Virus record (IMG/VR): IMGVR_UViG_3300025872_000364
Location: 1 to 21,436 of that record
Length of the DNA: 21,436 nt
Strand: one strand, 5' to 3'
From: a virus
Position numbers and translations under genes: made by a program. Positions 9,828 through 21,436 of the stretch are shown one piece after another. The notes under the pieces were generated by a model. It had not been told where the DNA came from and ran no database searches. It was given only the letters and a program-made list of their open reading frames with translations. The number at the start of each line of letters is the position of its first letter. The first letter of the stretch is position 1.

Positions 9828-10595
9828 TTAAATTACGCGAGTTTTCTCATGTCCTACTCTGATACGAGGATCGCACCAGATCTCAAATCCTGCCTCTTTT
9901 GCATCAAGACAGAAAGAAACGTCTTCACCACACATATCTTGAACTGCACCAGACTCAAAGACTTGCATCTTCGGAGCAAACCAAGGGTATTCAAGATTCT
10001 CAAAGACTCCCTTCTTAATCAGAACCCAACCAAAACCAGTGTAGTCTACTGTGAAAGGCTTTCTACGCTTGGAAATTGATTCCACGGTTTCATGATTCAT
10101 CACACCACCGTTCTTGCGGAAATCATCTTCCTCCAACCAGTGTGCGACAGATGTTGTGTGACCATCTTCGGTAGCATACCATCCAGCAACAACTTCTTTT
10201 TCTTCTCCATCTTCCGAAAGAGCAACATCACAGAGTTGCCAGAATTTGTTAGAATCAAAAACAATATCACTATCAATCCAGAGTTGATAATCATATTGTA
10301 GTTTACCATCCCAAGGAACTTGTTTTGGTCCTCTAAGTACATTTGCGCCGAGAACCTTACATCTTGCAAAGTTAACCATCGAGGAGTAATCCTGAGAAAT
10401 CTGAATACTCATACCGTTTTGAACCATATCAAAACAGAGTTGTACAAATGCTTTGAGGAAAATAAAAGAGCATCCACGCCCAGGAAGGCAGAAGATAATT
10501 GATTTTCCCCTCATTCTTTCTTTAATCGCATCATAGTCCCACTCAGGTCCTGAGACTTTTGGTGCTGTTGCTTTAACTGTAAATCCTTTTGCCAT
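9828..10595 (-). CDS. Glycosyltransferase-like protein (GT-A type)
   Basis: The product has 255 residues and looks like a GT-A fold glycosyltransferase. LWIDSDIVF (residues 105-113) supplies a DxD-type metal/nucleotide-sugar motif. GEDVSFCLDAKEAGF (223-237) resembles the acidic acceptor-side motif of family-2-like enzymes. CLPGRGCSF (36-44) sits where the first beta strand is expected. There is no signal peptide or membrane span, so it probably acts in the cytoplasm, perhaps on a virion protein or on DNA bases. Substrate and target cannot be read from the sequence. A TTGACA/TAAAAT promoter lies just upstream. The 46-aa gene follows after 12 bases. Confidence 0.75.
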   Translation of the reverse strand: MAKGFTVKATAPKVSGPEWDYDAIKERMRGKSIIFCLPGRGCSFIFLKAFVQLCFDMVQNGMSIQISQDYSSMVNFARCKVLGANVLRGPKQVPWDGKLQYDYQLWIDSDIVFDSNKFWQLCDVALSEDGEEKEVVAGWYATEDGHTTSVAHWLEEDDFRKNGGVMNHETVESISKRRKPFTVDYTGFGWVLIKKGVFENLEYPWFAPKMQVFESGAVQDMCGEDVSFCLDAKEAGFEIWCDPRIRVGHEKTRVI

Positions 10596-11650: not shown

Positions 11651-11680
11651 TTGGAGAAGAATTTAAGTAGGTTGGTCTTA

Positions 11681-11716
11681 TACTACTAGGACACTTTAGA
11701 GATGAGTAACTTTAAT
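11681..11716 (-). repeat. Operon-head repeat, copy 1
   Basis: On the minus strand it reads GTTACTCATC, then AAAGTGTCCTAGTAGTAT. Here TAT runs into AAG rather than an ATG, and the gene start is 31 bases further on (11650). Centre mismatches: GAGATG replaces GAAGGTG. Confidence 0.9.
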
Positions 11717-11730
11717 CACTCACACATCGA

Positions 11731-11919
11731 TCAGACTTGGGTAACGAAGTTGGTACCACTGGAGCGATTTGTGCGGCAACGATTTCCCTTCGTTTGTGTC
11801 ATCACCAGATCAGACTTACGGGGTTTCGCAGATGCTAACCGTGTGACCTTAACCTTACCCTGAACCTCAGCAATCATCAGATCCAGAGTAGACATTGAAG
11901 CGAACTCAGTGAGTGTCAT
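11731..11919 (-). CDS. Basic hypothetical protein, 62 aa
   Basis: The product has 62 residues. The first 20 look helical (TEFASMSTLDLMIAEVQGKV), followed by a strongly basic part (ASAKPRKSDL, then KGNRCRTNRSSGTNFVTQV). Such a shape suits nucleic-acid binding, but nothing specific is recognisable. It is the second gene of the unit headed by repeat copy 2, and its stop lies 15 bases before repeat copy 1. The leader is pyrimidine-rich without a Shine-Dalgarno. Confidence 0.65.
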   Translation of the reverse strand: MTLTEFASMSTLDLMIAEVQGKVKVTRLASAKPRKSDLVMTQTKGNRCRTNRSSGTNFVTQV

Positions 11920-11953
11920 TTTGAGAAGGATTGAAGGGAGTTTGTGTTACTTA

Positions 11954-12202
11954 TCAGTCGCGGGGAGATGTAGACCAAGGAGCATAAAATCCTTCAATCT
12001 CACCAAACGTTTGCTCCAGATACTTCTCTTCATTTGAGAGAGTTTTGGTCACAAATTCGTCGTTCAAATAGTATTGAAACTCAGTGTACCATGACTTGAT
12101 ACGATTACCCTGAGCGTCCCACGATTGACGCCACAGAGTGTTAGGAAAGCACTGATAGACGTTACCAGTGAAGGGGGAAGTGTAGGAGGAGGTGTTTCTC
12201 AT
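11954..12202 (-). CDS. Hypothetical protein, 82 aa
   Basis: The product has 82 residues and is aromatic-rich (SYTSPFTGNVYQCF near the start, TEFQYYLNDEFVTKTL in the middle). Its ATG is the last codon of repeat copy 2, so translation begins directly at the repeat without a Shine-Dalgarno. Function is unknown. It may form a small beta-rich domain; no catalytic motif or membrane segment is visible. Confidence 0.75.
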   Translation of the reverse strand: MRNTSSYTSPFTGNVYQCFPNTLWRQSWDAQGNRIKSWYTEFQYYLNDEFVTKTLSNEEKYLEQTFGEIEGFYAPWSTSPRD

Positions 12203-12237
12203 ACTACTAGGACACTTTCAAGGTGAGTAACGTTAAT
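12202..12237 (-). repeat. Operon-head repeat, copy 2
   Basis: Minus strand: AACGTTACTCACC, then AAAGTGTCCTAGTAGTATG, whose ATG is the start of the 82-aa gene. One change (AACGTT for AAAGTT) relative to the consensus, plus one in the centre. Confidence 0.95.
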
Positions 12238-12252
12238 TGTCGAACACTAGTG

Positions 12253-12666
12253 CTACTCTACTGTCTGCAGACGTTCTATAAACTCATCCAGATAGTCTGT
12301 CGGATCGTGACCTAACTCTGCGATACGATTTAACTCATTTAAGATAGCACTCATTTGCTTCACATAAGGTACGCGCATTCTCTCTGTCGTACCCAGAAAA
12401 GTGTAATTCTTCGGTCTCCCGCCAGCACAATTCTTGGGACGAAACCTAGCATCTTTCCTACTCTTTTCGATGTGGCATTTGTTACATAAAAGTTGGCACT
12501 TTGATAACTCTTCCTCCAAAACTTCCTTGGGTTTGTGATACCCTGCGGAAATGTTGAATGACTTTGTGGAGGGGTCAATATGGTCGAACTCTAATGTTTC
12601 AGTGCAACCGCATTCTACACACTTTCCACCCAGTTTTTCGATGAGGATTTCTCTAAAATAGTTCAT
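12253..12666 (-). CDS. HNH endonuclease (putative homing type)
   Basis: The product has 137 residues. KCVECGC (15-21), LEFDHIDP (25-32) and CQLLCNKCHIEKSR (57-70) form an HNH fold. C16/C19 and C61/C64 probably bind zinc; D28, H29 and the residues around N62-H65 form the metal site. The C-terminal half (from about 75) would bind DNA. It probably nicks or cuts a phage target so the gene can spread. Unlike its neighbours it has a T4-type late promoter (12693-12700) and a Shine-Dalgarno (AAAGGA), both consistent with independent insertion. A small hairpin encloses the RBS and ends next to the ATG. Confidence 0.92.
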   Translation of the reverse strand: MNYFREILIEKLGGKCVECGCTETLEFDHIDPSTKSFNISAGYHKPKEVLEEELSKCQLLCNKCHIEKSRKDARFRPKNCAGGRPKNYTFLGTTERMRVPYVKQMSAILNELNRIAELGHDPTDYLDEFIERLQTVE

Positions 12667-12689
12667 AGGTATTTTGTCCTTTAATACCT
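12667..12689 (-). promoter_or_regulatory. Hairpin around the HNH gene RBS
   Basis: AGGTATT (12683-12689), a 9-base loop holding the AAAGGA Shine-Dalgarno, and AATACCT (12667-12673) form a perfect 7-bp stem on the minus strand. The ATG follows immediately. A transcript from the late promoter would start within the 5' arm and weaken the stem. Confidence 0.45.
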
Positions 12690-12692
12690 TTT

Positions 12693-12700
12693 TATTTATA
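12693..12700 (-). promoter_or_regulatory. T4-type late promoter, perfect match
   Basis: TATAAATA on the minus strand, 27 bases before the HNH start codon. This is the exact T4 late consensus, with the expected spacing for a short leader. Confidence 0.7.
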
Positions 12701-12742
12701 GTGTTTTTGATGTATTAAGGGACAAAACTAAAAGTGCGTTTC

Positions 12743-12916
12743 TTACCACTTAGAGGGACAATCGAGGTCCTCAACGTATGCTTCACACTTCTCAGATGGC
12801 TCAAGTTCGAATAACTTCTCCCAGTCTATTTGGTGTGGATCGAAGTCTGCTAGAACGTTCATTTCCAGAGTGATCCTATAACGCTGCTTCTGTGCTTGAT
12901 GATACGCAACCGACAT
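12743..12916 (-). CDS. Acidic hypothetical protein, 57 aa
   Basis: The product has 57 residues: MSVAYHQAQKQRYRITLEMN, then DFDPHQIDWEKLFELEPSE, ending DLDCPSKW. The basic N-terminus contrasts with an acidic C-terminal half. Function is unknown. It is one of few genes in this half of the window with a clear Shine-Dalgarno (AAAGGAG, 7 bases upstream) and has its own TTGACA/TAGAAT promoter plus a late-promoter match. It sits between the HNH gene and the divergent promoter region. Confidence 0.8.
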   Translation of the reverse strand: MSVAYHQAQKQRYRITLEMNVLADFDPHQIDWEKLFELEPSEKCEAYVEDLDCPSKW

Positions 12917-12943
12917 AAGTACGCTCCTTTGAGTTATGGAATC

Positions 12944-12972
12944 ATTCTATAATGTCTTGGAGTAGGTGTCAA
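12944..12972 (-). promoter_or_regulatory. Sigma70-like promoter of the 57-aa gene
   Basis: Minus strand TTGACA (12967-12972), exactly 17 bases, then TAGAAT (12944-12949). The start would be near 12937, about 20 bases before the ATG at 12916. Strong match for an early or host-type promoter. Confidence 0.75.
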
Positions 12973-12984
12973 GTACCTGGGGAG

Positions 12985-12992
12985 TATTTATG
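12985..12992 (-). promoter_or_regulatory. T4-type late promoter candidate
   Basis: CATAAATA on the minus strand, directly upstream of the TTGACA box, would add a late start for the 57-aa gene with a leader of roughly 60 bases. Confidence 0.4.
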
Positions 12993-12993
12993 T

Positions 12994-13017
12994 GGGTTCC
13001 GGGGGACTCTGGGAGGG
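12994..13017 (+). other. G-quadruplex motif
   Basis: Plus strand GGG, TTCC, GGGGG, ACTCT, GGG, A, GGG: four G runs with loops of 4, 5 and 1 bases, the canonical G4 pattern. More G runs flank it (GGGG at 12979-12982, GGGGG at 13041-13045). It lies between two divergent promoters, in a low-GC phage genome. Confidence 0.65.
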
Positions 13018-13045
13018 TCTTGTGAGGATTTTGTGACCTTGGGGG

Positions 13046-13074
13046 TTGACGGATTGCGTTCCTTATGTTATGCT
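13046..13074 (+). promoter_or_regulatory. Sigma70-like promoter of the GIY-YIG gene
   Basis: Plus strand TTGACG (13046-13051), 17 bases, TATGCT (13069-13074). The start would be near 13081, giving a leader of about 155 bases before the ATG at 13236. It is one of the few rightward signals in the window. Confidence 0.6.
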
Positions 13075-13235
13075 GTCTTAGATGACTACAAGATCACACA
13101 TTTATTAAAGATACCACGATCAATATAACAATCTCATACACCTTTTATTTTACATTATTTTTTCCATCAGTTAGTATAGCAAACCATCATCAAAAAGGTG
13201 CTATTTATACATATTATTAGAACGTCTTATCAGTA

Positions 13236-13988
13236 ATGAACCAAGGAATAATCTATGCCATTTTCAATAAAGAAACTGGCAAATATTACATAGGTCAAAC
13301 TATACACGAACTGAACAAAAAGTGGAAGGAACATCTATATGAAGCGCGGAGAATGAATGATGCTCCACTATACAGATCTCTACGCAAATATGGAGAAGAT
13401 AAGTTTAAGATTAGGGTGATAGAAGAGTGCTCTGCGGATATACTTGACGACAGAGAAACTTACTGGATAAATGAATACAACTCTTACATCAATGGATATA
13501 ATCAAACTTCAGGATCTGGCGGTCAGTATAGAGTAAGCATTACAATGAGTGGGGTTGAGAAGACACCAGAACACATTGAAAATATAAGAAAATCAATAAA
13601 AAGAAACGGCGTTGGTTTTAAGATAAGAGGTGACGGTAAGCATAGTTGTGTCAAAGTAAAAACGATAAATGTTGATACTCTGGAAGAAAAGTTTTACGAT
13701 AGTTTAACTGAATGTGCGAAAGCATTAAATATCACAAATGGAAACCTTTGTCGTTATATCAAACACGGATGGAAAGTTAAAGGTCACAGAATAATCAAGT
13801 TAGAGAATAAAAAGAAAAGTCACGCAATCTATGGCGTAGATAAGATTACAAATCAAGTCAAATATACGTTCTCAAGTGTAAGAGAAGCAGGGAGAGTTTT
13901 AGGAACTGGTGGAGCAAGTGGATGTGATAAATCACTCAAACATCCACACAAATACACTTGGAAAGGTTGTTATTGGTTCTATCAATAA
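13236..13988 (+). CDS. GIY-YIG homing endonuclease with NUMOD-type DNA-binding repeats
   Basis: The product has 250 residues. GIIY (4-7) and YIG (18-20) open the nuclease domain. E74 in DRETYWINEYN aligns with the catalytic E75 of I-TevI, and INGYNQT (85-91) closes the domain. The catalytic Arg27 of I-TevI is replaced by Lys29 (NKKWKEH). TPEHIENIRKSIK (about 111-123) is a NUMOD3-like linker. Two NUMOD1-like helix modules follow (near 145-185 and 205-235), for binding a long DNA target. The gene is transcribed opposite to its neighbours, with its own promoter and no Shine-Dalgarno, as for a mobile free-standing endonuclease. The Arg-to-Lys change may weaken cutting. Confidence 0.92.
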   Translation: MNQGIIYAIFNKETGKYYIGQTIHELNKKWKEHLYEARRMNDAPLYRSLRKYGEDKFKIRVIEECSADILDDRETYWINEYNSYINGYNQTSGSGGQYRVSITMSGVEKTPEHIENIRKSIKRNGVGFKIRGDGKHSCVKVKTINVDTLEEKFYDSLTECAKALNITNGNLCRYIKHGWKVKGHRIIKLENKKKSHAIYGVDKITNQVKYTFSSVREAGRVLGTGGASGCDKSLKHPHKYTWKGCYWFYQ

Positions 13989-13992
13989 ACAT

Positions 13993-14022
13993 AAAAAAAG
14001 AGCGCGGTTACCAATCGCGCTC
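13993..14022 (-). terminator. Strong rho-independent terminator (leftward)
   Basis: GAGCGCG (14000-14006), a 9-base loop and CGCGCTC (14016-14022) form a perfect GC-rich stem. Leftward transcripts then meet a run of seven T (13993-13999 on plus is all A). It ends the unit headed by repeat copy 3 and stops leftward transcription running into the GIY-YIG gene. Confidence 0.85.
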
Positions 14023-14136
14023 GTGTTCACCCAACCACCTTTTTATTGGAATTATCTATACTCTACGGAAGTCACTTTTGATTGTAGATGAGGCAAACTC
14101 CCTTCCTCTTTGTATGAAATTAGTTAAACCAGTATG
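14008..14136 (-). pseudogene. Possible gene relic with one in-frame TAG
   Basis: One minus-strand frame reads NFIQRGREFASSTIKSDFRR, V, TAG (14056-14058), then IIPIKRWLGEHERDW and a TAA inside the terminator loop. The composition looks like real protein and the TAG could derive from a CAG codon. No start codon is present and the upstream end overlaps the preceding small gene. Possibly the remains of a gene lost near the GIY-YIG insertion; chance is not excluded. Confidence 0.3.
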
Positions 14137-14221
14137 CTAAATCTGCGAGTTCTGATGCAATCTCTTCTAGATTATCTTCGGTGAGTTTGCTGATGAGTTG
14201 TTGTTTGAGATTAGCGTCCAT
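14120..14221 (-). CDS. Small acidic hypothetical protein, 33 aa
   Basis: The product has 33 residues: MDANLKQQLISKLTEDNLEE, then ASELADLAYWFN at the end. It looks like one or two amphipathic helices. An in-frame ATG three codons upstream (14230) is an alternative start. It follows the 103-aa gene after about 15 bases, in the unit headed by repeat copy 3. Function is unknown; the size makes the call moderate. Confidence 0.55.
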   Translation of the reverse strand: MDANLKQQLISKLTEDNLEEIASELADLAYWFN

Positions 14222-14236
14222 GATTATCATTTAAGT

Positions 14237-14548
14237 TCAGTTGAGTTTGATACCATTGTTGAAAGGAACATCACCGTTGGATGTTGATACAAACCACTGA
14301 AAGTTCTTTTGATAAACAGACTCACCAGTTCCGTGCTCTGAGAGAATAGCATTAAGACGCGATTTGGTGGTATTTGATTTTACTCCACCATCAAAGATTT
14401 CCAACCAAGTATCACCTACCATTGCAATCAGATTGCTATACAGATAGACGAAACTTACACCTTCAATGTTAATGACTTGAGTGTTTGCGGATTTCCAATC
14501 AGTTTCGGTGCTGATTGCGCGGTTCATTTGTGCTTCGATCTTACGCAT
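14237..14548 (-). CDS. Conserved-looking phage hypothetical protein, 103 aa
   Basis: The pattern MRKIEAQMNRAI near the start and DGGVKSNTTKSRLNAIL (residues 53-69) is one I have seen in small proteins from many unrelated phages, without an assigned function. The middle has beta-type strands (VSFVYLYSNLIAMVGDTWLE). The C-terminal part, QKNFQWFV, is aromatic. It is first in its unit, but the ATG lies about 20 bases after repeat copy 3 with a C/A-rich leader and no Shine-Dalgarno. Confidence 0.88.
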   Translation of the reverse strand: MRKIEAQMNRAISTETDWKSANTQVINIEGVSFVYLYSNLIAMVGDTWLEIFDGGVKSNTTKSRLNAILSEHGTGESVYQKNFQWFVSTSNGDVPFNNGIKLN

Positions 14549-14570
14549 TGTGGTTTGGGGTAAGTGGTGA

Positions 14571-14606
14571 TACTACTAGGACACTTTGAAGGTGAGTAAC
14601 TTTAAT
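14571..14606 (-). repeat. Operon-head repeat, copy 3
   Basis: Consensus copy on the minus strand: AAAGTTACTCACC, then AAAGTGTCCTAGTAGTAT. The final base is C instead of G, so the ATG is lost; the gene starts 23 bases further, at 14548. Confidence 0.95.
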
Positions 14607-14614
14607 CAGGCAGG

Positions 14615-14818
14615 TCAGAGATTGGATTCCATGATCACATCACGAACTTCCATCTTGAAGTAATCATAACCCAGCTTCTCCAGCAGATAGATCGTGTAAG
14701 CATCTGCAGTGGATTTACAATCAAACAGTTTCAGGGAGTTGAAGTCTTCACCTTCATACTTATATCCACCAATTACAGCATAGACTTTCATATTGATTTG
14801 ATCGGGAGTGAGAGTCAT
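14615..14818 (-). CDS. Phage hypothetical protein, 67 aa
   Basis: VYAVIGGYKYEGEDFNSLKL (residues 12-31) followed by FDCKSTADAY and YDYFKMEVRDV is a recurrent small phage protein pattern with no assigned function. It is probably a small alpha/beta domain. Met9 (MKVYAVIGG) is a possible alternative start. It is third in the unit headed by repeat copy 4, starts 6 bases after the preceding stop and has no Shine-Dalgarno. Confidence 0.85.
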   Translation of the reverse strand: MTLTPDQINMKVYAVIGGYKYEGEDFNSLKLFDCKSTADAYTIYLLEKLGYDYFKMEVRDVIMESNL

Positions 14819-14824
14819 TTCAGT

Positions 14825-15085
14825 TCAGAAATTAAGTGATTTAATGTTGAGAAAAACCATCTGAAGAGGTTCACCGTTCACATGAAAGAACACATAGTTA
14901 GGGTGAACTTCAATGTCACCATCTACAGTGGAGAGGTCAACATAATCATGCCCATCATTGTCTGAAATGTAGGGATTGTCGTCTGTATCATACCCTACAA
15001 AATAGAGGATATCATTGACACTTACAGCATAGGAATCTGCCAGAAGATTGTGAAATTGATTGAGAGTGATAGTAGTGTGAGTCAT
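14825..15085 (-). CDS. Acidic hypothetical protein, 86 aa
   Basis: The product has 86 residues and is rich in aspartate (YDTDDNPYISDNDGHDYVDL, residues 32-51). Hydrophobic strands at both ends suggest a small beta fold. No family recognised. It is second in the unit headed by repeat copy 4. The leader has no Shine-Dalgarno (ACTGTAACACAA before the ATG). Confidence 0.8.
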   Translation of the reverse strand: MTHTTITLNQFHNLLADSYAVSVNDILYFVGYDTDDNPYISDNDGHDYVDLSTVDGDIEVHPNYVFFHVNGEPLQMVFLNIKSLNF

Positions 15086-15109
15086 TTGTGTTACAGTTTG
15101 TGAGGGAAA

Positions 15110-15397
15110 TCAGATACGAAATGCACCGAGAGAGTTAAACTTAGTCCAGATGTTTTTCTCTGCGATACGCTTACCGTCAATCTGGAAAGTATAACGGAGT
15201 TGTCCTTTTACAGTCTTGGAAACTTTACACGTGAGGCAAATCTCACCGTCACGCTTACCATTCCAATCATACTTTGGAAAGTAGTGATTACAAACTCCAT
15301 CGAAACGGCAATCAACAACACTGTTACGTTGTTGATAGTTTTCAAGTGCAAGTTGCTCAGTGAGAGCAATGCTGTCGAAGAGGTCGTGTGTGTTCAT
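15110..15397 (-). CDS. Hypothetical protein with two cysteine pairs, 95 aa
   Basis: The product has 95 residues. DCRFDGVCNHYF (29-40) and EICLTCKV (52-59) supply four cysteines in two pairs plus a histidine, compatible with a zinc-ribbon-like site, though the first spacing (CX5C) is unusual. The C-terminal part (RYTFQIDGKRI) looks like beta strands. Function is unknown. The ATG is the end of repeat copy 4, so this gene heads a three-gene unit. Confidence 0.8.
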   Translation of the reverse strand: MNTHDLFDSIALTEQLALENYQQRNSVVDCRFDGVCNHYFPKYDWNGKRDGEICLTCKVSKTVKGQLRYTFQIDGKRIAEKNIWTKFNSLGAFRI

Positions 15398-15432
15398 ACT
15401 ACTAGAACACTTTGAAGGTGAGTAACTTTAAT
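15397..15432 (-). repeat. Operon-head repeat, copy 4
   Basis: Minus strand AAAGTTACTCACC, then AAAGTGTTCTAGTAGTATG, with T for C in GTGTCC. The ATG starts the 95-aa gene. The far end touches the stop codon of the ArdA-like gene. Confidence 0.95.
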
Positions 15433-15845
15433 CAGTAGTAAGTTCGAAACACATAACCATTCACAAATGTGAAATCATAGCGTAGATTTTGCTCAAAAGT
15501 TTCTTGCCAATCAATCACAACAAATGAAGGAATATCGTACTGTTCAGATGTATATTCCTCTGCAAACTCTGCTTCTGAACGATACTCTCCAACGTATGCG
15601 TTCTCTGCGTTCTCTACATCAGAAAGACCAAACTCTTCAACGAACGCATCAACAACATCATAACCAAGATTCTCACCTTGCGTCACATATTCTTCGTAAT
15701 AGTTAAGAAAATCCTCTTCAGAGTTTGCATCAATGAACTCTAGAATATCCTCCAGAGCATAGTTATCCTCCACGAACTCATCAATCTTATTGACAATTTC
15801 TTCGTTGAAGATTTCTTTATAGTTGTTAGTGAGAGTGACAGGCAT
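15432..15845 (-). CDS. ardA-like: ArdA-like anti-restriction protein (DNA mimic)
   Basis: The product has 137 residues. It is extremely acidic: I count 35 D/E against 5 K/R, as in ArdA proteins, which mimic B-form DNA and block type I restriction enzymes. The C-terminal half follows the ArdA pattern: AYVGEYRSEAEFAEEY (83-98), then IPSFVVIDWQETFEQNL (104-120) and FVNGYVF (127-133). The N-terminal part is shorter than in typical ArdA (about 165 residues), so the first domain may be reduced. It lies second in a unit headed by repeat copy 5. In this phage it would shield incoming DNA in the host; that role is inferred from the family. Confidence 0.8.
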   Translation of the reverse strand: MPVTLTNNYKEIFNEEIVNKIDEFVEDNYALEDILEFIDANSEEDFLNYYEEYVTQGENLGYDVVDAFVEEFGLSDVENAENAYVGEYRSEAEFAEEYTSEQYDIPSFVVIDWQETFEQNLRYDFTFVNGYVFRTYY

Positions 15846-15894
15846 TTGTGTTAAGAATTGTGGTTTGAGTTTGTGACTTTAATATCTTGGAAAA

Positions 15895-16077
15895 TCACAT
15901 TCCGTTGATAAAGTCAGCGAGTGCTTTTTTGTATTCAGTTTCGGTAGCAAATGTGCGACCGTGAATGGTACGCGGATAGGTTACGTTTGTTTCACCAACT
16001 GCAGCAACATTGCGGCAGTCTTGCTCATCGTAACCCATTTCAATGAGGTTTTGAACGTAGGGATTGTAATGTGTCAT
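15895..16077 (-). CDS. Hypothetical protein, 60 aa
   Basis: The product has 60 residues. YVQNLIEMGYDEQDCRNVAA (7-26) faintly recalls a UBA-like three-helix motif, but too weakly for a claim. YPRTIHGRTFATETEYKKAL (34-53) follows. The ATG is the last codon of repeat copy 5. The ArdA-like gene follows about 50 bases later, so the two may be co-expressed. Confidence 0.75.
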   Translation of the reverse strand: MTHYNPYVQNLIEMGYDEQDCRNVAAVGETNVTYPRTIHGRTFATETEYKKALADFINGM

Positions 16078-16112
16078 ACTACTAGGACACTTTGAAGGTG
16101 AGTAACTTTAAT
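16077..16112 (-). repeat. Operon-head repeat, copy 5
   Basis: Exact consensus on the minus strand; ends in the ATG of the 60-aa gene. It follows the truncated GIY-YIG gene after about 24 bases. Confidence 0.95.
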
Positions 16113-16136
16113 TCATTGAAACTTTCTCTCTTAAAC

Positions 16137-16316
16137 TTACATCAATGCCTCTTCTTCATCTATATTTTTCTTGAGGAAAATGATACGTTTTCTATCTTTT
16201 GGAACAGGACAACTCCTGTTCTGTTTGCAATATGCTCTCCTACCTTCTCCCTTTCCAATGTAATAGGGAGTTCCATCTTCACGCAGATATGCGTAAGTGT
16301 AAAACTTGTTATTCAT
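16137..16316 (-). pseudogene. Truncated GIY-YIG endonuclease, 59 aa
   Basis: The product has 59 residues: YTYAYLREDGTPYYIGKGEG (6-25), then VPKDRKRIIFLKKNIDEEEA (38-57). This is the N-terminal half of a GIY-YIG nuclease common in phages (full proteins are usually well over 100 residues). The frame stops at TAA right after EEEALM, where the family normally continues into the catalytic Glu helix. A second stop follows two codons later. It keeps a T4-type late promoter (16339-16346) and no Shine-Dalgarno. It is most likely a decaying homing endonuclease, although the short product may still be made. Confidence 0.8.
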
Positions 16317-16338
16317 TCTACTTTATGTGCCGCATCAG

Positions 16339-16346
16339 TATTTATG
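16339..16346 (-). promoter_or_regulatory. T4-type late promoter of the truncated GIY-YIG gene
   Basis: CATAAATA on the minus strand, 23 bases before the ATG at 16316 and directly after a terminator, so this gene would be transcribed only from here. Confidence 0.6.
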
Positions 16347-16371
16347 CAAGAAAGGGGGCATTTCTGCCCCC
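16347..16371 (-). terminator. Rho-independent terminator
   Basis: GGGGGCA and TGCCCCC pair perfectly (7 bp, 4-base loop, 16354-16371). On the minus strand TTTCTT follows. It ends the five-gene unit headed by repeat copy 6. Confidence 0.8.
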
Positions 16372-16413
16372 AATCTCTTTGCTTAGTTGCGACACATAAG
16401 CACTATTATTTAT

Positions 16414-16578
16414 TCAATCAACCTCAACCCATTCTTCTCCATTATACACAACATCTGTACCAAAAACATCTGTGAACTCCAGCAAATAGTAATCTACAGA
16501 TACACCTTTGATTGCAGCATCTTGAAGAGTTTGGTGATACTGTTCAGAGGTGAGAATGAAGAAATCAGTTTCAATCAT
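16414..16578 (-). CDS. Acidic hypothetical protein, 54 aa
   Basis: The product has 54 residues: MIETDFFILTSEQYHQTLQD, ending TDVVYNGEEWVEVD. It is acidic with beta-prone ends. I do not recognise it. Its ATG overlaps the stop of the preceding 36-aa gene (ATGA), which supports translation by coupling in the absence of a Shine-Dalgarno. It is the last gene of its unit, about 40 bases before a terminator. Confidence 0.75.
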   Translation of the reverse strand: MIETDFFILTSEQYHQTLQDAAIKGVSVDYYLLEFTDVFGTDVVYNGEEWVEVD

Positions 16579-16685
16579 TGAGGTGAAATAATATCAGCAG
16601 CAGTGTGCAATGTGTTGGATGTTACGTTGCGAACTGCTGGTGAAAGTAGAAACGCAACGGTGAAAATCAGGAGAATTGTTTTCAC
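16575..16685 (-). CDS. Small membrane or exported peptide, 36 aa
   Basis: Starts at GTG (16685); the product reads MKTILLIFTVAFLLSPAVRN, followed by a polar tail. A single lysine and a run of about 13 hydrophobic residues, then SPA, look like a signal peptide or single membrane span. The stop overlaps the next ATG by ATGA. Function is unknown; it lies next to another peptide of the same design. The GTG start and small size reduce confidence. Confidence 0.6.
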   Translation of the reverse strand: MKTILLIFTVAFLLSPAVRNVTSNTLHTAADIISPQ

Positions 16686-16720
16686 TTTACACGGTGATTT
16701 GAGTGTTAAACTTCTGCGGA

Positions 16721-16855
16721 TCATTTGCAGAAATTAGGATCAATGTTACAGAATTGTTCTGCGCGTTGTTCTTGATACTCATTCACGGTTGCGATAGCAT
16801 TAGCACCGAACTGAATACCAACGAAAAGTGTAGCGAAGAGAAGAACAATTCTCAT
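16721..16855 (-). CDS. Small exported-looking protein with two cysteines, 44 aa
   Basis: The product has 44 residues. MRIVLLFATLFVGIQFGANA resembles a signal peptide with a possible cleavage after ANA. The mature part would be about 24 residues with two cysteines (C36, C43), able to form a disulphide outside the cytoplasm. The ATG overlaps the stop of the preceding gene (ATGA). It may act at the host membrane; this is inference from the leader only. Confidence 0.7.
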   Translation of the reverse strand: MRIVLLFATLFVGIQFGANAIATVNEYQEQRAEQFCNIDPNFCK

Positions 16856-17058
16856 TTCAGAATGTAACGATAATCAATGGATTTGATGCACCAACCTGTT
16901 GCACAGGTAATCTCTTCAACTAGATCATCCTCATCATCTGCTTCCCAGATTTGACCAATGGTTTCATCAATGATTTGTTCTTGTTTGGATGGTTGAAGTT
17001 CATACTCACCATCATCAGTGGTGAAATCAAACTTGATTTCAGTAACTTGGAACAGCAT
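16852..17058 (-). CDS. Phage hypothetical protein with GWCIKSIDY tail, 68 aa
   Basis: The product has 68 residues. The start (QVTEIKFDFTTDDGE), the acidic middle (IGQIWEADDEDDLVEEI, 34-50) and the end (TGWCIKSIDYRYI) form a pattern I know from small phage proteins of unknown function. The predicted arrangement is beta-alpha-beta. It starts two bases after the stop of the 56-aa gene and overlaps the next gene by ATGA. Confidence 0.85.
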   Translation of the reverse strand: MLFQVTEIKFDFTTDDGEYELQPSKQEQIIDETIGQIWEADDEDDLVEEITCATGWCIKSIDYRYILK

Positions 17059-17060
17059 AA

Positions 17061-17231
17061 TCAGTCAACGATAGAGTAGTTTGCAACCCAGGAAGGAATA
17101 CCGCTCAGTGATAAAGAACTGTTGCGGGCATCGCAATAATCTTGGGCATCATCTTCAGAGTAAAAAGGTCCAATGTATTCTGGAGAATCAAGAGATTCAG
17201 ACCAGAAACGAACGGTGAAAGTGTTAGTCAT
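17061..17231 (-). CDS. Hypothetical protein, 56 aa
   Basis: The product has 56 residues: MTNTFTVRFWSESLDSPEYI, then GPFYSEDDAQDYCDARNSS. It looks like a small beta-alpha domain (strand, then a helix starting at SEDDAQDYCDAR). The ATG is the end of repeat copy 6, so it heads a five-gene unit linked by overlaps or tiny gaps. Function is unknown. Confidence 0.8.
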   Translation of the reverse strand: MTNTFTVRFWSESLDSPEYIGPFYSEDDAQDYCDARNSSLSLSGIPSWVANYSIVD

Positions 17232-17266
17232 ACTACTAGAACACTTTGGAGGTGAGTAACTTTAAT
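17231..17266 (-). repeat. Operon-head repeat, copy 6
   Basis: Minus strand AAAGTTACTCACCTCC, then AAAGTGTTCTAGTAGTATG; the ATG starts the 56-aa gene. The far end overlaps the stop codon of the 47-aa gene by one base. Confidence 0.95.
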
Positions 17267-17409
17267 TAGTTGAACTTTGCGTTCACTCCAACTACCTTAC
17301 AAGTTGGGTTCCTTACGAGTGCAGTTTCACGCGCATCTTTGGGTGAGTTAGCATACACTTCCTCAGTGAAGACTTTGCCGCCTTGATAGAGTTTAACTTC
17401 GAATTTCAT
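17266..17409 (-). CDS. Small basic hypothetical protein, 47 aa
   Basis: The product has 47 residues: MKFEVKLYQGGKVFTEEVYA, then NSPKDARETALVRNP and VVGVNAKFN. It appears to be a beta-beta-alpha-beta mini-domain and is similar to small proteins I recall from cyanophages. Function is unknown. The start overlaps the stop of the preceding gene (ATGA). It is the last gene of the unit headed by repeat copy 7. Confidence 0.82.
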   Translation of the reverse strand: MKFEVKLYQGGKVFTEEVYANSPKDARETALVRNPTCKVVGVNAKFN

Positions 17410-17567
17410 ACAGAAGGAATAACAGAGATTTCTTTAATGTTGAGACCGCAGAGTTGATTATAGACGCGATTGAGTATCAGTTTGTCCGCAGTCTTTGCAT
17501 CGGATTTCTCATACCAAACGGTCACACATCCATCGTTAGTTTCAACCATCACGCGATAGTTTTTCAT
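17406..17567 (-). CDS. Hypothetical protein, 53 aa
   Basis: The product has 53 residues: MKNYRVMVETNDGCVTVWYE, then KSDAKTADKLILNRVYNQ and IKEISVIPSV. Layout is strand-strand-helix-strand, like the 47-aa protein that follows; the two could be distant paralogues. Stop and start codons overlap on both sides (one base with the preceding gene, ATGA with the next). Confidence 0.78.
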   Translation of the reverse strand: MKNYRVMVETNDGCVTVWYEKSDAKTADKLILNRVYNQLCGLNIKEISVIPSV

Positions 17568-17716
17568 CAGTCAAGACACACAAAGTTGTAATCAATAATG
17601 TCTTCACCTTCATCAAGATTTAGACATTCAGCAATAGCATCAGGGATAAACTTGCGAGGATGACTATTCTCATCAATCACAATCTCAAGTTTAACAACCC
17701 AAGTTTTGGTAGTCAT
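17567..17716 (-). CDS. Acidic hypothetical protein, 49 aa
   Basis: The product has 49 residues: MTTKTWVVKLEIVIDENSHP, then RKFIPDAIAECLNLDEGEDI, ending NFVCLD. It fits a strand, helix, strand layout. Unknown function. It starts two bases after the preceding stop, and its own stop shares one base with the next ATG. Confidence 0.75.
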   Translation of the reverse strand: MTTKTWVVKLEIVIDENSHPRKFIPDAIAECLNLDEGEDIIDYNFVCLD

Positions 17717-17718
17717 AA

Positions 17719-17850
17719 TCAATAAGTTTCTTTCTGGTTTTGTCGGCGTTGAGAGTCTTCATCCTCCTTAAATGGTTTATACTCAGGATGAGCATTTTCC
17801 CATTTAATCAGTTCATCAATCCAGGAAGAGTTGGAGTTGGTTTTTTTCAT
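17719..17850 (-). CDS. Hydrophilic hypothetical protein, 43 aa
   Basis: The product has 43 residues. It is very polar: MKKTNSNSSWIDELIKWENA, then HPEYKPFKEDEDSQRRQNQ. It probably forms a single helix and a disordered tail. No family recognised. It is separated from both neighbours by only two bases, which supports its reality despite the small size. Confidence 0.7.
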   Translation of the reverse strand: MKKTNSNSSWIDELIKWENAHPEYKPFKEDEDSQRRQNQKETY

Positions 17851-17852
17851 AA

Positions 17853-18092
17853 TCAGGCAGGAAGTGTGCAGAAAGTTCCACACCAACCGCGAACCCATTG
17901 TAGAGTTTCAGCGTAGGAAGTGCGAGGGTTGGACATCTCCATCGTCTTACCATTGCGGGGATTGTGTGCAACGGCGACGTAGGAATAACCTTTGTACTCA
18001 TCACCAGACTGCTCAATCCACATCTGGTTGACTTTGCCTTCCTTCCAATCGGTGTGGTAGGAGTAGATTTCGGAAACGATTGTTTTGCTCAT
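17853..18092 (-). CDS. Hypothetical protein, 79 aa
   Basis: The product has 79 residues: beta-rich in the middle (YKGYSYVAVAHNPRNGKTME, 33-52) and a tryptophan/cysteine-rich end (LQWVRGWCGTFCTLPA, 64-79). The two cysteines lie close together (C71, C75). The ATG is the end of repeat copy 7, so it heads a five-gene unit (17266-18092). Function is unknown. Confidence 0.8.
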   Translation of the reverse strand: MSKTIVSEIYSYHTDWKEGKVNQMWIEQSGDEYKGYSYVAVAHNPRNGKTMEMSNPRTSYAETLQWVRGWCGTFCTLPA

Positions 18093-18127
18093 ACTACTAG
18101 GACACTTTGGAGGTGAGTAACTTTAAT
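18092..18127 (-). repeat. Operon-head repeat, copy 7
   Basis: Minus strand AAAGTTACTCACCTCC, then AAAGTGTCCTAGTAGTATG; the ATG starts the 79-aa gene. Confidence 0.95.
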
Positions 18128-18133
18128 TGCTTG

Positions 18134-18397
18134 TCACCAAGTTCCTCTTTGGACGTGGATTTTGCGAATCTCCGAATAAATGAAGCGACGCAGTTTATCA
18201 TCTGTGCTATTGTCAAAAGCAAAGTACAGACGATTAAGATACTCATCTTGTGTAGCACATTTGATACTCTCTTTGGTGCTCATTCCAATGTCGTTGAGTG
18301 TAGAACCTACAGAAACTTTGTTGCGGCCGAAGTTGCCCGAAACCCTACCTTGTGTGCGAAGTTTAGGTTTAATCTTAGAGAGATTTGAGTAGGTCAT
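18134..18397 (-). CDS. Basic hypothetical protein, 87 aa
   Basis: The product has 87 residues with a basic N-terminal third (SKIKPKLRTQGRVSGNFGRN, 7-26) and helical remainder (DDKLRRFIYSEIRKIHVQRG near the end). Nucleic-acid binding is possible by charge but unproven. The start overlaps the stop of the preceding gene (ATGA). It is last in the unit headed by repeat copy 8. Confidence 0.78.
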   Translation of the reverse strand: MTYSNLSKIKPKLRTQGRVSGNFGRNKVSVGSTLNDIGMSTKESIKCATQDEYLNRLYFAFDNSTDDKLRRFIYSEIRKIHVQRGTW

Positions 18398-18543
18398 TCT
18401 TCCTCAGTCACAGCATCAAAAAAGAACTCATAAGTTGCAGAACCATTTACACTTTGTTTTGTACTCTTGAACCATTCAACAGGACATTCTTTCAACCATT
18501 CATTAAAATCTATGTGTTGACTTGTGAGATTTGGTACAGTCAT
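18394..18543 (-). CDS. Hypothetical protein with WLKECPVEW motif, 49 aa
   Basis: I use the ATG at 18543, one base after the upstream stop; an ATG at 18582 in the same frame would run back into the previous gene. From there the product is 49 residues, with FNEWLKECPVEWF in the first half and an acidic C-terminus (FFFDAVTEEE). The WL..CPV.W pattern recurs in small cyanophage proteins in my memory. Unknown function. Confidence 0.75.
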   Translation of the reverse strand: MTVPNLTSQHIDFNEWLKECPVEWFKSTKQSVNGSATYEFFFDAVTEEE

Positions 18544-18544
18544 T

Positions 18545-18742
18545 TCATTTGGTAGAGAGATTGTTGATAATACGACGGGCAAACTTCATAAAATCATAGG
18601 AAGTTACACCGTCATTATCATAACCATCCAGCATATCTGTTTGGTTGTAAGTATTCACAATCAGCAAACAAGCATCATAAAGTGCTGCCTGATGTTCCTC
18701 TTCAGAGTGAAAAGAAATTGCGTTGTAGTTAGGAAGGGTCAT
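18545..18742 (-). CDS. Acidic hypothetical protein, 65 aa
   Basis: The product has 65 residues: MTLPNYNAISFHSEEEHQAA, then LYDACLLIVNTYNQT and DFMKFARRIINNLSTK. Mostly helical by composition. No family recognised. The ATG overlaps the preceding stop (ATGA). Confidence 0.75.
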   Translation of the reverse strand: MTLPNYNAISFHSEEEHQAALYDACLLIVNTYNQTDMLDGYDNDGVTSYDFMKFARRIINNLSTK

Positions 18743-18858
18743 TTCAGTTTCAGTTTGAGTGATTGAAGAGATTGCTTGCGGGATTTGATTTTACCCTTAC
18801 ACATACCCTTGGTTCGTTTACACTTACCAGAGTTGTGTTTCCAGTTTGGAGTGTTCAT
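18739..18858 (-). CDS. Lysine-rich peptide, 39 aa
   Basis: The product has 39 residues, 13 of them K or R: MNTPNWKHNSGKCKRTKGMC, then KGKIKSRKQSLQS and a K/L tail. Two cysteines (C13, C20) flank basic residues. Binding to DNA or RNA is likely from charge alone. It starts at the ATG of the divergent half-repeat (copy 8), and its stop overlaps the next ATG by ATGA. Too short for a firm call without homologues. Confidence 0.65.
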   Translation of the reverse strand: MNTPNWKHNSGKCKRTKGMCKGKIKSRKQSLQSLKLKLK

Positions 18859-18886
18859 ACTATAGGGACACTTTCAGCGTCCCCCC
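18858..18886 (-). repeat. Operon-head repeat, copy 8 (half copy with hairpin)
   Basis: Only the gene-proximal half is kept: AAAGTGTCCCTATAGTATG. The distal half is replaced by GGGACGC, so GGGACGC, TGAAA and GTGTCCC can form a 7-bp hairpin with one G-U pair. This copy shows which half is essential. Confidence 0.75.
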
Positions 18887-18892
18887 TTTCAA

Positions 18893-19351
18893 TCAACGAG
18901 CGTACAAATAACCACCAGACCAGTCAGCATTTGCCAGCAACCATTCACGATCTTTAATCAATCGCAGGTCATAACGAACACCTTTCGCAGGTGCTTTCCA
19001 TGATGCAGACTTATACACTTCACCAGTCTTTTTGTCAATGAAGCAATGCACACTCCGCGATCCATTAGCGTTCATAATAACTTTGTGATACTTTCTACCA
19101 GTCTCAGGGTAGAACTCATAATCACAAATACCCTTGCGAAGTTTATCAATGCAAGCGATGTGATAGTGAGCATTATCACCTTTCTCAACAGAATGTTTGT
19201 GAGAACGGATAGAATAATCAATAAAGTTCTGTCGAAGTGCCTCACACAGAGCGTAAGTGTGACCCAGAACTGCAGTTGCAATATCTTGCCGTGCTTCAGC
19301 AGCGGCAGAGTATTCAACGAAGGTAGTTGTAGTCATTTCAGTTGTGCTCAT
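18893..19351 (-). CDS. Phage hypothetical protein, 152 aa
   Basis: The product has 152 residues. The C-terminal region (GRKYHKVIMNANGSRSVHCF at about 85-104, then DKKTGEVYKSASWKAPAKGV, RYDL) is a motif seen in many phage and some plasmid proteins with no assigned function. The VHCFIDKKTGEVYK hairpin looks like a beta domain. The N-terminal half is helical. The ATG is the end of repeat copy 9; a second in-frame ATG lies 15 bases further (Met6). It forms a single-gene unit. Confidence 0.88.
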   Translation of the reverse strand: MSTTEMTTTTFVEYSAAAEARQDIATAVLGHTYALCEALRQNFIDYSIRSHKHSVEKGDNAHYHIACIDKLRKGICDYEFYPETGRKYHKVIMNANGSRSVHCFIDKKTGEVYKSASWKAPAKGVRYDLRLIKDREWLLANADWSGGYLYAR

Positions 19352-19386
19352 ACTACTAGGACACTTTGGAGGTGAGTAACTTTAAT
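19351..19386 (-). repeat. Operon-head repeat, copy 9
   Basis: Minus strand AAAGTTACTCACCTCC, then AAAGTGTCCTAGTAGTATG; the ATG starts the 152-aa gene. A short frame ending RQSIYLAKTW stops one base upstream. Confidence 0.95.
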
Positions 19387-19403
19387 TCACCAAGTTTTGG
19401 CAA

Positions 19404-19411
19404 GATAAATA
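19404..19411 (+). promoter_or_regulatory. T4-type late promoter candidate (outer)
   Basis: GATAAATA on the plus strand, about 90 bases before the HNH start at 19499. It lies outside the hairpin at 19421-19491, so its transcript would keep the whole hairpin. Confidence 0.35.
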
Positions 19412-19420
19412 CTTTGCCTG

Positions 19421-19491
19421 GTTTGTGTGGTAACTTCTCAGGTAGGGGAGATTTTAGGATTTCCCCTCATAAATAATAAAACCACACAAAC
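19421..19491 (+). promoter_or_regulatory. Nested hairpin in the HNH gene leader
   Basis: GTTTGTGTGGT (19421-19431) and ACCACACAAAC (19481-19491) are perfectly complementary over 11 bp. Inside, AGGGGA (19444-19449) and TCCCCT (19462-19467) form a second 6-bp stem. The 3' arm ends 7 bases before the ATG, so the structure would cover the ribosome site. Confidence 0.6.
19468..19475 (+). promoter_or_regulatory. T4-type late promoter inside the hairpin loop
   Basis: CATAAATA on the plus strand lies between the two arms of the outer stem. A transcript from here would begin near 19481 and lack the 5' arm, freeing the start site of the HNH gene at 19499. Confidence 0.55.
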
Positions 19492-19498
19492 AGAGCAG

Positions 19499-19879
19499 AT
19501 GAAAGAACATCCTACCCATAAGGGTTACTTTATCACGAAAGATGGTAAGATTTTTAGTGCCTGGCAAAGAAAAGCAAATCCAGGATTTGGTAATAGTTTT
19601 TACTATGTAATAGATACAAATAAGATGAGAGAACTGAAATCTTGGGACAATAAAAAGGGGTACTTAATCCTTAACTTAAAAGGTTCTAAAAAGAACTGGA
19701 AAGTCCATAGATTAGTTGCAGAAACTTATTTGCCTAATCCATATAATCTACCACAAATCAATCATAAAAATAAAAATACAAAAGATAATAGTATTTCCAA
19801 TCTAGAATGGTGTACGGCATCATATAACGCAATACATAGAGATTACTTTTCTATACTTTCTGAAAGCGTCCAGAGTTAA
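19499..19879 (+). CDS. HNH homing endonuclease with NUMOD4-like start
   Basis: From the ATG at 19499 the product is 126 residues; an upstream GTG (19427) lies in the hairpin and is unlikely. GYFITKDGKIFSAWQRK (9-25) is a NUMOD4-like module. KVHRLVAETYLPNP (68-81), INHKNKNTKDNSISNLEWCT (86-105) and NAIH form the HNH_3-type nuclease core. The last residues, SILSESVQS, run 29 bases into the 3' end of the convergent ligase-like gene, so the end may be recent and truncated. It is opposite in strand to its neighbours and has its own late promoter, as expected of a mobile endonuclease. Confidence 0.9.
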   Translation: MKEHPTHKGYFITKDGKIFSAWQRKANPGFGNSFYYVIDTNKMRELKSWDNKKGYLILNLKGSKKNWKVHRLVAETYLPNPYNLPQINHKNKNTKDNSISNLEWCTASYNAIHRDYFSILSESVQS

Positions 19880-20753
19880 AGTTAGCGTGGGAAAAAACTT
19901 CTCTATTCACCAACTTATAGCAACCAAACTTGTTAGATAAGCAGTAACCTTCTGCATCAATACGATTGTATCCGATATAAGCAGCAGGACCATCATTACG
20001 ACAAAGAAACAGGCAATCGTCTTTGATAGACTTCACAAGAGACCACAAACGAATGAGGTTAGGGTCACAATCAAAGTCATTCACATTATCTACAGTAATC
20101 TGCTCACCTGCACGAATAAAATCATTCAGTTTCTTGGTAATCTTTGCTGCTTCTTTGTTAGAAACAAACTCACACATCGTAGACATTTGACGCGCAAATG
20201 CACAAACTTCTTTTACATCAGCGAAGTATTCTTGCTGATGGACGATATAAGCATCAGGTTTCACAAACTTGCAGTAAGGTGTATCGGTGATACTAAACTT
20301 CATCGGATACGCTACTGCATCACGCAAATCATTCTCTGCGATGTAGACAGTATGAGGAGCAAGAATAATCTCCTCAGTAACTACATCAGGAAACTTGTAA
20401 GTGATAGTATTTGGTTTGTACTCATCACTACCACCAAACCCGATAAAGTCTGCTTGAATGATAGCATTTACACGCGGCAGATAGTCAAAGCAAGCGTGAA
20501 GAATGTTTGCTACATTACCTTCGTGATTTGCGTCAATATCCTGATGCGATTCGTTGATTTTGATTTTAACTTTATTGAAGACACTTTTGGTCCCCACGAA
20601 GAAGTTACCAGTCGCAGGATTAATACCAAAAACTACTGCAGGAGCACCATCAATCTTGACAGACAGATTGCCAGGAGTTACAAACCAATCCAGCACAGAC
20701 AAATCGCCCGTGAGAATAGAATCTTCAGGATGTTGCAGGTGAGTGTTCTTCAT
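19851..20753 (-). CDS. Ligase-like nucleotidyltransferase (KxDG), 300 aa
   Basis: The product has 300 residues. SVKIDGAPAVVFG (31-43) carries the KxDG active-site motif, K33 being the likely nucleotide-linked lysine. FFVGTKSVFNK (51-61) follows. EGYCLSNKFGCYKLVNREVF near 269-288 fits the EGxx and KxxN-type motifs IV and V of the RNA/DNA ligase superfamily. I recall close relatives in many phages (I believe DUF6267), still without a proven substrate; HPED near the N-terminus is typical. It may join or cap nucleic acid ends. No OB-fold domain is evident. The ATG ends repeat copy 10. Its 3' end overlaps the HNH gene and may be truncated by that insertion. Confidence 0.82.
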   Translation of the reverse strand: MKNTHLQHPEDSILTGDLSVLDWFVTPGNLSVKIDGAPAVVFGINPATGNFFVGTKSVFNKVKIKINESHQDIDANHEGNVANILHACFDYLPRVNAIIQADFIGFGGSDEYKPNTITYKFPDVVTEEIILAPHTVYIAENDLRDAVAYPMKFSITDTPYCKFVKPDAYIVHQQEYFADVKEVCAFARQMSTMCEFVSNKEAAKITKKLNDFIRAGEQITVDNVNDFDCDPNLIRLWSLVKSIKDDCLFLCRNDGPAAYIGYNRIDAEGYCLSNKFGCYKLVNREVFSHANFNSGRFQKV

Positions 20754-20788
20754 ACTACTAGGACACTTTGAAGGTGAGTAACTTTAAC
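20753..20788 (-). repeat. Operon-head repeat, copy 10
   Basis: Consensus copy on the minus strand. Its ATG starts the ligase-like gene, and the TAA of its opening TTAAAG is the stop codon of the methyltransferase gene, so both coding ends are built into the element. Confidence 0.95.
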
Positions 20789-21436
20789 TCATTGCAGAAA
20801 TGAGAGGATTGTTGATACGATCTTGTGCAATCTTAAAATACTCCTCATCCATTTCAATACCCACAAAGTTTCTATTAGTGTTCACACACGCTACACCAGT
20901 TGTGCCTGATCCCATCGTATTGTCTAGTACAGTATCACCTTCGTTAGTGTATGTTTTAATTAGATACTCCATCAAATCAACAGGTTTTTGTGTAGGATGC
21001 AGACCCTTTTCTTGCTTGAATCGCAATACTGTCTTAGGGTATCTTGATCCATCAGGATTATCCCGATGCTTGCTCTTTGCACTACCATAAACCTCACCAA
21101 TCTTACTGGTTTCGGATGAGAAACCACTGTAAGGTGTAGAGTACCACATTTGAGGATTGTATGTAGGTTTCTTTCTATAAAAGACCAGTATGTTTTCGTG
21201 TGACTTGAGAGGCATTACTTTTGAGTTCATAGGATTAGTCCCCTGAGGTTTTTCCCAGATCCATTCATAACGAAAGTTCTCAAGATTTGATGCTGCAAGT
21301 ATAGTTGTGAATGGTTGTGCTGCAGTGAATACCATTGCACCATCTTCTTTACAGATTCTATTGTATTGCTCCCACAGTTTATCCAGAGGAATGATAGAAT
21401 CCCATTTACACGCTGTTGTACCGTATGGCAAATCTA
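20784..21436 (-). CDS. DNA methyltransferase (N4/N6-type), 5' end outside window
   Basis: The frame is open to the right edge; the first visible residues are DLPYGTTACKWDSIIP. DLPY is a form of the DPPY catalytic motif IV. Near the end, HPTQKPV (motif X) and DNTMGSGTTGVA (motif I, SAM binding) are followed by FVGIEMDEEYF. The order IV, then target region, then X and I marks the beta class. No restriction nuclease is seen next to it, so it is probably an orphan enzyme that marks phage DNA. It would complement the ArdA-like protein. The recognition site cannot be read. TAA (20784-20786) lies in repeat copy 10. The apparent start at 21431 is a TTG inside the DLPY motif, so the real start is outside. 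Confidence 0.92.
   Translation of the reverse strand, partial: DLPYGTTACKWDSIIPLDKLWEQYNRICKEDGAMVFTAAQPFTTILAASNLENFRYEWIWEKPQGTNPMNSKVMPLKSHENILVFYRKKPTYNPQMWYSTPYSGFSSETSKIGEVYGSAKSKHRDNPDGSRYPKTVLRFKQEKGLHPTQKPVDLMEYLIKTYTNEGDTVLDNTMGSGTTGVACVNTNRNFVGIEMDEEYFKIAQDRINNPLISAMS

Follow-up and report, generated by a model that had tools for sequence, protein, structure and literature searches.

What does a short element do that is found ten times on one strand of a phage sequence, each time as the filler of a gap between two genes? The question is raised by IMG/VR record IMGVR_UViG_3300025872_000364, of which positions 1 to 21,436 were analysed (this whole stretch is called the window). The window is a fragment of a T4-like cyanophage viral contig, as can be seen from gp25, gp6, a Kyanoviridae family protein and short megablast matches to cyanophages. 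The orientation of the copies, their fit to the gaps, the single copy per gene unit and the canonical sigma-70 sites at some units without the element favour a promoter/leader, most likely, judging from sequence, of another class than the canonical sigma-70 promoters that these genomes also have. In our view, a subgroup of T4-like cyanophages (Kyanoviridae) probably uses the element as a compact transcription-start element, whose genome-specific left half would be read in trans.

Copies of the element in the window

Positions within the element are counted from the first A of AAAGTG (position 0); the embedded ATG occupies 16-18, and negative numbers extend into the left half. The pattern AAAGTGTCCTAGTAGTATG, with up to three mismatches allowed, has 10 matches in the window, all on the minus strand, against a mean of 0.01 and a maximum of 1 in shuffled sequences. 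The ten copies in one orientation listed by a first-pass annotation of this DNA are thereby confirmed, as is the lack of copies in the structural half of the window. The left half GTTACTCACC (type A) is found 13 bp upstream in nine of the ten copies, with a single mismatch in the copy at 11701-11710. Copy 8, which had been taken for a half copy, turns out to be complete and to differ in its left half (GGGGGGACGCTG + AAAGTGTCCCTATAGTATG), which is of a type found in other phages; it is probably an imported element-gene cassette, given that its left-half type (GGGGGGACG) is that of a different phage group. The gene family of copy 8 has the same left half in contig L110, where the other left halves are mostly of the ATAGCTCACC type. 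The conserved stretch across relatives is about 42 bp long (-20 to +22) rather than 36 bp, as was first thought.

Eight copies end in an ATG at which an open reading frame (ORF) begins, as had been noticed (Table 1), and the TAA at the left end of copy 10 does serve as the stop codon of the upstream ORF 20784-21431 (minus strand). This ORF, directly before copy 10, encodes an N6/N4 DNA methylase and is cut by the window end. In type A every reading frame is closed by a stop codon (TAA, TAG and TGA/TAA/TAG at positions -17, 12-14 and 17-19), so that no gene can run through it, and T17-R-A19 remains a stop in most element variants. The claim that a copy stands at the head of each unit is valid for most units; units 12743-12916 and 9828-10595 lack the element and are headed by canonical TTGACA-N17-TAGAAT/TAAAAT sites instead.

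Distribution among relatives

The exact pattern of both halves was found in 71 stretches in IMG/VR, and the pattern of the right half only, which is blind to the left half, in at least 120; 731 copies were collected in all. The contigs are fragments and partly redundant, their genes are simple ORF calls, and the statistics given below ignore kinship. Among isolates, the element is present in SynMITS9220M01 and in S-SM2 (9 copies at 47.3-57.1 kb), with diverged copies in S-B43, and was not found in the homologous region of six others (S-SRM01, S-SKS1, Bellamy, P-SSM2, S-BM3 and Syn9).

Copies at random inside genes, which the first-pass annotation had named beforehand as evidence that would speak against its proposal, are not what the near-complete relatives (190-285 kb) contain. 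Their strong copies lie in a single island and in a single orientation, before purM/gp25/gp6: 14 copies at 45.5-60.9 kb of 222.6 kb in genome G001, 14 at 44.1-62.3 kb of 204.8 kb in the incomplete genome G003, and 10 at 38.9-50.0 kb of 190.2 kb in SynMITS9220M01. Outside the island there are only stray single weak matches near the threshold. The island contains a helicase, DUF6267, DUF7717 and many small proteins of no assigned function, and the element recurs ahead of homologous genes in many phages. Of 710 copies, 633 have the upstream stop codon between -35 and +20, most often at -22 to -15, which means that the element constitutes the entire intergenic gap. A strand-specific, intergenic element that is restricted to one island and recurs before homologous genes fits the phage promoter class and/or conserved leader that had been suggested.

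A constant right half and a genome-specific left half

The right half AAASTGTNCYWRTARTRT (S = C/G) is common to the 731 copies, with an identity of 0.837 between random contigs. Left halves (positions -13 to -3) have an identity of 0.929 when they come from one contig, of 0.508 when they belong to one gene family in different contigs, and of 0.512 at random (0.921 versus 0.490 in the set collected blind to the left half). Because the gene-family value across contigs equals the random one, the left-half type follows the genome and not the gene. About 20 sequences of the left half can be told apart, and some of these are variants of others; they include GTTACTCACC, ATAGCTCACC, GTTAGGATCG, CTCTGGGGCC, AACTGGGCCC, AGGGGGGACG, GTTAGTAACC, AACTGAAGCC and ACTTGGATCC; several contain short palindromes (GGATCC, GGGCCC, GTTAGTAAC). 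The type A left half also contains TCACCTYC, which resembles the anti-Shine-Dalgarno end of 16S rRNA. Mimicry of that end was considered and rejected: the type A sequence TCACCTCC is like the 16S 3' end, but the other left-half types lack it, and the likeness is probably a coincidence.

Among the 106 contigs with at least three copies, 86 have one left-half class and 20 are mixed. Some mixed contigs carry apparently imported cassettes, as does the window, and others blend similar classes; foreign-type cassettes of type E occur in both the window and L110, and of type A in a type C genome. The replication proteins of G001 and G003 are 95-99% identical, and the median over 161 reciprocal pairs is 80%, yet G001 has GTTACTCACC and G003 has TTGGATCC at all strong sites, and SynMITS9220M01, which is more distant from G001 than G003 is, nevertheless carries the GTTACTCACC of G001. 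Such a concerted change at so many sites points to a common reader in trans, and the best explanation for the left halves would be a trans-acting, phage-specific factor.

The embedded start codon and the leaders

The embedded ATG is present in 418 of the 731 copies and opens a long ORF in 390 of these; copies without it have ATAA, GTAA or similar, and there the gene start lies mostly at 31-40 and in a few cases at 19-30. Use of the embedded ATG is universal in certain gene families (25/25, 16/16, 14/14, 11/11 and 8/8) and absent in others (0/25 and 0/22). In 110 copies the ATG at 16 is the only start within 20 codons, and among copies of this kind 30 of the 82 that could be tested head single-gene units. 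Ribosomes must therefore use the embedded ATG. No Shine-Dalgarno sequence was found at the element. The right half was also considered as a translation signal acting at a fixed distance, and this was rejected, since the ATG follows the same right half either at 16 or at 31-40; the earlier idea of a leader read by an altered ribosome is not supported either, in view of the same observation.

In contigs L081, L074, L045 and L195, a long leader often follows those copies whose embedded ATG is missing or unusable, and a hairpin starts in it immediately behind the element (for example GAGAACGCC...GGCGTTCTC from position 18). A hairpin directly past the element suggests that those bases are present in the mRNA. 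The complementarity of leaders to the element is in weak excess at 15-28 (z 2-4), which is not decisive for the 5' boundary.

Other features of the island

Homing-type endonucleases (GIY-YIG and HNH) are located in the island of the window at 13236-13988 and 19427-19879 on the plus strand and at 12253-12666 and 16137-16316 on the minus strand; two of these genes are opposite to the other genes of the island, and one short GIY-YIG-like piece was judged by eye.

Table 1. Copies of the element and a contrasting canonical site in the window (aa, amino acids)
Feature	Coordinates	Strand	Position 0	Element	Gene served
Copy 10	20751..20789	-	20769	type A (GTTACTCACC); ATG	300-aa DUF6267 protein (19851-20753)
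Copy 9	19349..19387	-	19367	type A; ATG	152-aa DUF7717 protein (18893-19351)
Copy 8	18856..18894	-	18874	type E left half GGGGGGACGCTG, right half CTATAGTATG; ATG	MNTPNWKHNSGK family
Copy 7	18090..18128	-	18108	type A; ATG	79-aa ORF 17853-18092
Copy 6	17229..17267	-	17247	type A, one T change in right half; ATG	56-aa ORF, MTNTFTVRFWS family (17061-17231)
Copy 5	16075..16113	-	16093	type A; ATG	60-aa MTHYNPYVQNL family (15895-16077)
Copy 4	15395..15433	-	15413	type A; ATG	95-aa ORF 15110-15397
Copy 3	14569..14607	-	14587	type A; TATC instead of ATG	Kyano_Gp96 family, start 14548, 39 nt past position 0
Copy 2	12200..12238	-	12218	type A; ATG	82-aa ORF 11954-12202
Copy 1	11679..11717	-	11697	type A with changes; TATA instead of ATG	start 11650, 47 nt past position 0
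Canonical TTGACA-N17-TAGAAT site	12944..12972	-		contrast case	heads element-free unit 12743-12916

How the element may work

In the explanation that we favour, the element would comprise a promoter and the first bases of its transcript, and its two halves would have different readers. The RNA polymerase holoenzyme would read the constant right half AAASTGTNCYWRTARTRTRA. The 8-11 bp of the left half, from -13 to -3, would be in contact with a factor encoded by the phage (or specific to it); the DNA sequence that this factor prefers would vary among phages and, within one genome, change at every site at once. Between the tail-fibre genes and purM/gp25/gp6, every unit of the small-gene island would be driven by one copy. 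The transcript is predicted to begin at or upstream of 16, which would give a leaderless or nearly leaderless mRNA for the embedded-ATG genes. Early timing may be expected by analogy, considering the position of the island and its homology with the small-gene island of Syn9. A bolder version, which may well prove wrong and is put forward tentatively, would be a rapidly diversifying phage promoter code: near-identical phages would read a constant core through different left boxes of 8-11 bp, about 14 boxes per genome would switch together with a swapped, predicted phage initiation factor, and transcription would begin within the element, the AUG of leaderless mRNAs thus coming from the core.

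The most invariant bases of the right half include T12, A13, T15 and T17, and positions 14 and 16 vary between purines. The resulting TANNNT at 12-17 is nearly invariant and is the best -10 candidate. The first-pass annotation had found no convincing -35/-10 pair, which is correct for canonical hexamers: a consensus scan for canonical sigma-70 sites picks up no element, no TTGACA-like -35 lies 16-18 bp upstream of the -10, and the left halves are never TTGACA-like. The TAAAGT that it offered as a -10 occurs only in some left-half types. No MotA-box consensus was found in the left halves. The idea that the island is poor in canonical sigma-70 sites was also considered, and was dropped because the difference is not significant (2 observed against about 4 expected in G001, and 4 against about 3 in SynMITS9220M01).

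Read as a sigma-70 -10 hexamer, TANNNT puts +1 near 24. The element could accordingly be a promoter of host SigA with its -10 at 12-17 and +1 near 22-24, with the left half standing in for the -35 and serving as the binding site of a phage activator, as in the case of T4 MotA; as part of the same proposal, translation from the embedded ATG would take place only on transcripts that read through from upstream units. The base pattern agrees with it, as T12, A13 and T17 are invariant or nearly so and 14 and 16 are purine-variable as in -10 hexamers; the left half would fall at about -37 to -29, the main ATGs in copies without an embedded ATG peak at 31-37 (about +8 to +14), and the units that open each array lack an embedded ATG. 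We nevertheless regard it as rather unlikely, because a start at +24 would leave the single-gene units with their sole ATG at 16 inexpressible; moreover, T4-like cyanophages are reported, in a passage of PMC5780444 citing Doron 2016 and Thompson 2016, to lack motA and/or asiA.

Several observations do weigh against the transcript start at or before 16 and the factor that we prefer. A sigma-70 +1 near 24 falls after the embedded ATG, which brings promoter and start-codon logic into conflict; no -10-like hexamer was found at a distance fitting a start at or before 16, and the ATG distance in the other genes (31-40) suits a +1 near 24 equally well. The trans factor was not found among the proteins that are closer to those of the phage with the same left half than to those of the nearer relative, a comparison limited by the missing stretches of G003, and single-subunit RNA polymerase (PF00940), considered as a reader of the element, was found in 0 of 12 records in a search without a positive control. 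Three candidates for the factor, a 373-aa protein beside the clamp loader, a 176-aa island protein and a 382-aa protein, were rejected, as they occur in many phages, including phages without the element; S-SRM01 has both the 373-aa and the 176-aa proteins.

Alternatively, the element could act at the RNA level, transcribed within long mRNAs as an RNase processing site or as the site of a phage RNA-binding regulator. The embedded ATG must indeed be in the mRNA for about 110 genes, and some long leaders form hairpins whose 5' arm starts at 15-20, beside the weak excess of complementarity described above. This is improbable, however, since no common fold exists (fold z is near 0 for most of 15 representatives and only type E clearly folds), no Rfam match was found for the element, it lies at varying distances from the start codon, and the palindromes of the left halves are too short for hairpins and suit a DNA-binding dimer.

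It is very improbable that the element is a recombination repeat, a short homology for gene-cassette exchange whose left halves are homogenised by gene conversion: the foreign-type cassettes and the role reported for T4-type PeSL elements (cited in PMC4503421) agree with it, but conversion tracts of <40 bp would need to homogenise 14 dispersed sites despite differing flanks, the 20 mixed contigs indicate that imports are not quickly homogenised, and the single orientation and the fixed stop-start gap are left unexplained. The earlier suggestion of cassette exchange is supported only as far as the foreign-type element-gene cassettes in the window and other contigs are concerned; a crossover at the element itself would be a further supposition.

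Little is known of how T4-like cyanophages control their many small genes, which are thought to take over the host. The element is found in hundreds of copies, and its recognition half switches wholesale between close relatives while the genes served stay the same. This wholesale change predicts a specific, swappable phage factor, and the approximately 20 box sequences provide a natural series for finding it. As S-SM2 and SynMITS9220M01 carry the element, start sites and timing are measurable, and if activity is shown, the elements could serve as orthogonal promoter parts for cyanobacteria.

Comparison with known systems

An early-gene regulatory element of the T4-like cyanophages Syn9 and P-TIM40 has reportedly been described by Doron et al. 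in ISME J in 2016. Syn9 belongs to the same phage family and has the same island, with small genes around the helicase, before gp25/gp6. It also has a repeat of its own that is confined to the island, GTGTATTCTATAAGAGTCAAAGG with GTGT-N-CTATA, before ATGs; the repeats lie at 46339, 47254, 48608, 51050 and 53046 of DQ149023, with the annotated start of gp73 at one of them. Unlike the element described here, the Syn9 repeat has a AAGGTGGCACA/AAGTGTCCAC box about 40 bp upstream and a Shine-Dalgarno-like AAAGG. The right-half pattern, with up to three mismatches, has one stray site outside the island in Syn9 and none in P-TIM40, and the repeat of Syn9 was not found in P-TIM40. A GTGGCACA-type box was considered as a counterpart class in other Kyanoviridae, and its counts are not clean enough to claim one.

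PeSL elements (Arbiol 2010, Comeau 2014) are likewise promoter-like intergenic repeats of a hypervariable region, one per unit, with a link to cassette exchange, and the present element has the same type of placement, heading gene units in the hyperplastic region of a T4-like phage. The differences are that most types here have no stem-loop/terminator, that the left half is genome-specific and that a start codon is embedded. At several genes of the P-SSM2 island (AY939844, L307), the start codon is preceded by TGGCACACA, a C/G-rich inverted repeat with a T-run, and TATAATA, in this order, an arrangement that looks like a composite promoter-terminator of the PeSL kind.

More distant likenesses exist outside this phage group. 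The SAS/ESAS of Cluster K mycobacteriophages (PMC3203893) are short repeats in the same orientation at the start codons of many small genes, and the ESAS half-sites differ between subclusters as the left halves do between genomes; however, SAS is linked with translation initiation, whereas the element has two start distances and no Shine-Dalgarno sequence, and the arms of ESAS are 17-bp inverted repeats. According to the abstract of PMC8707807, halovirus HF2 has intergenic repeats of 29-58 bp that are conserved in place among relatives and act as promoters in reporters; HF2 differs in being an archaeal virus, and that abstract describes no genome-specific half. Repeated early regulatory elements are already known in T4-like phages (PeSL, Syn9), and a new category is not claimed. 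What the PeSL and Syn9 elements do not account for is that the left half is genome-specific while the right half is constant, and that the core contains a start codon.

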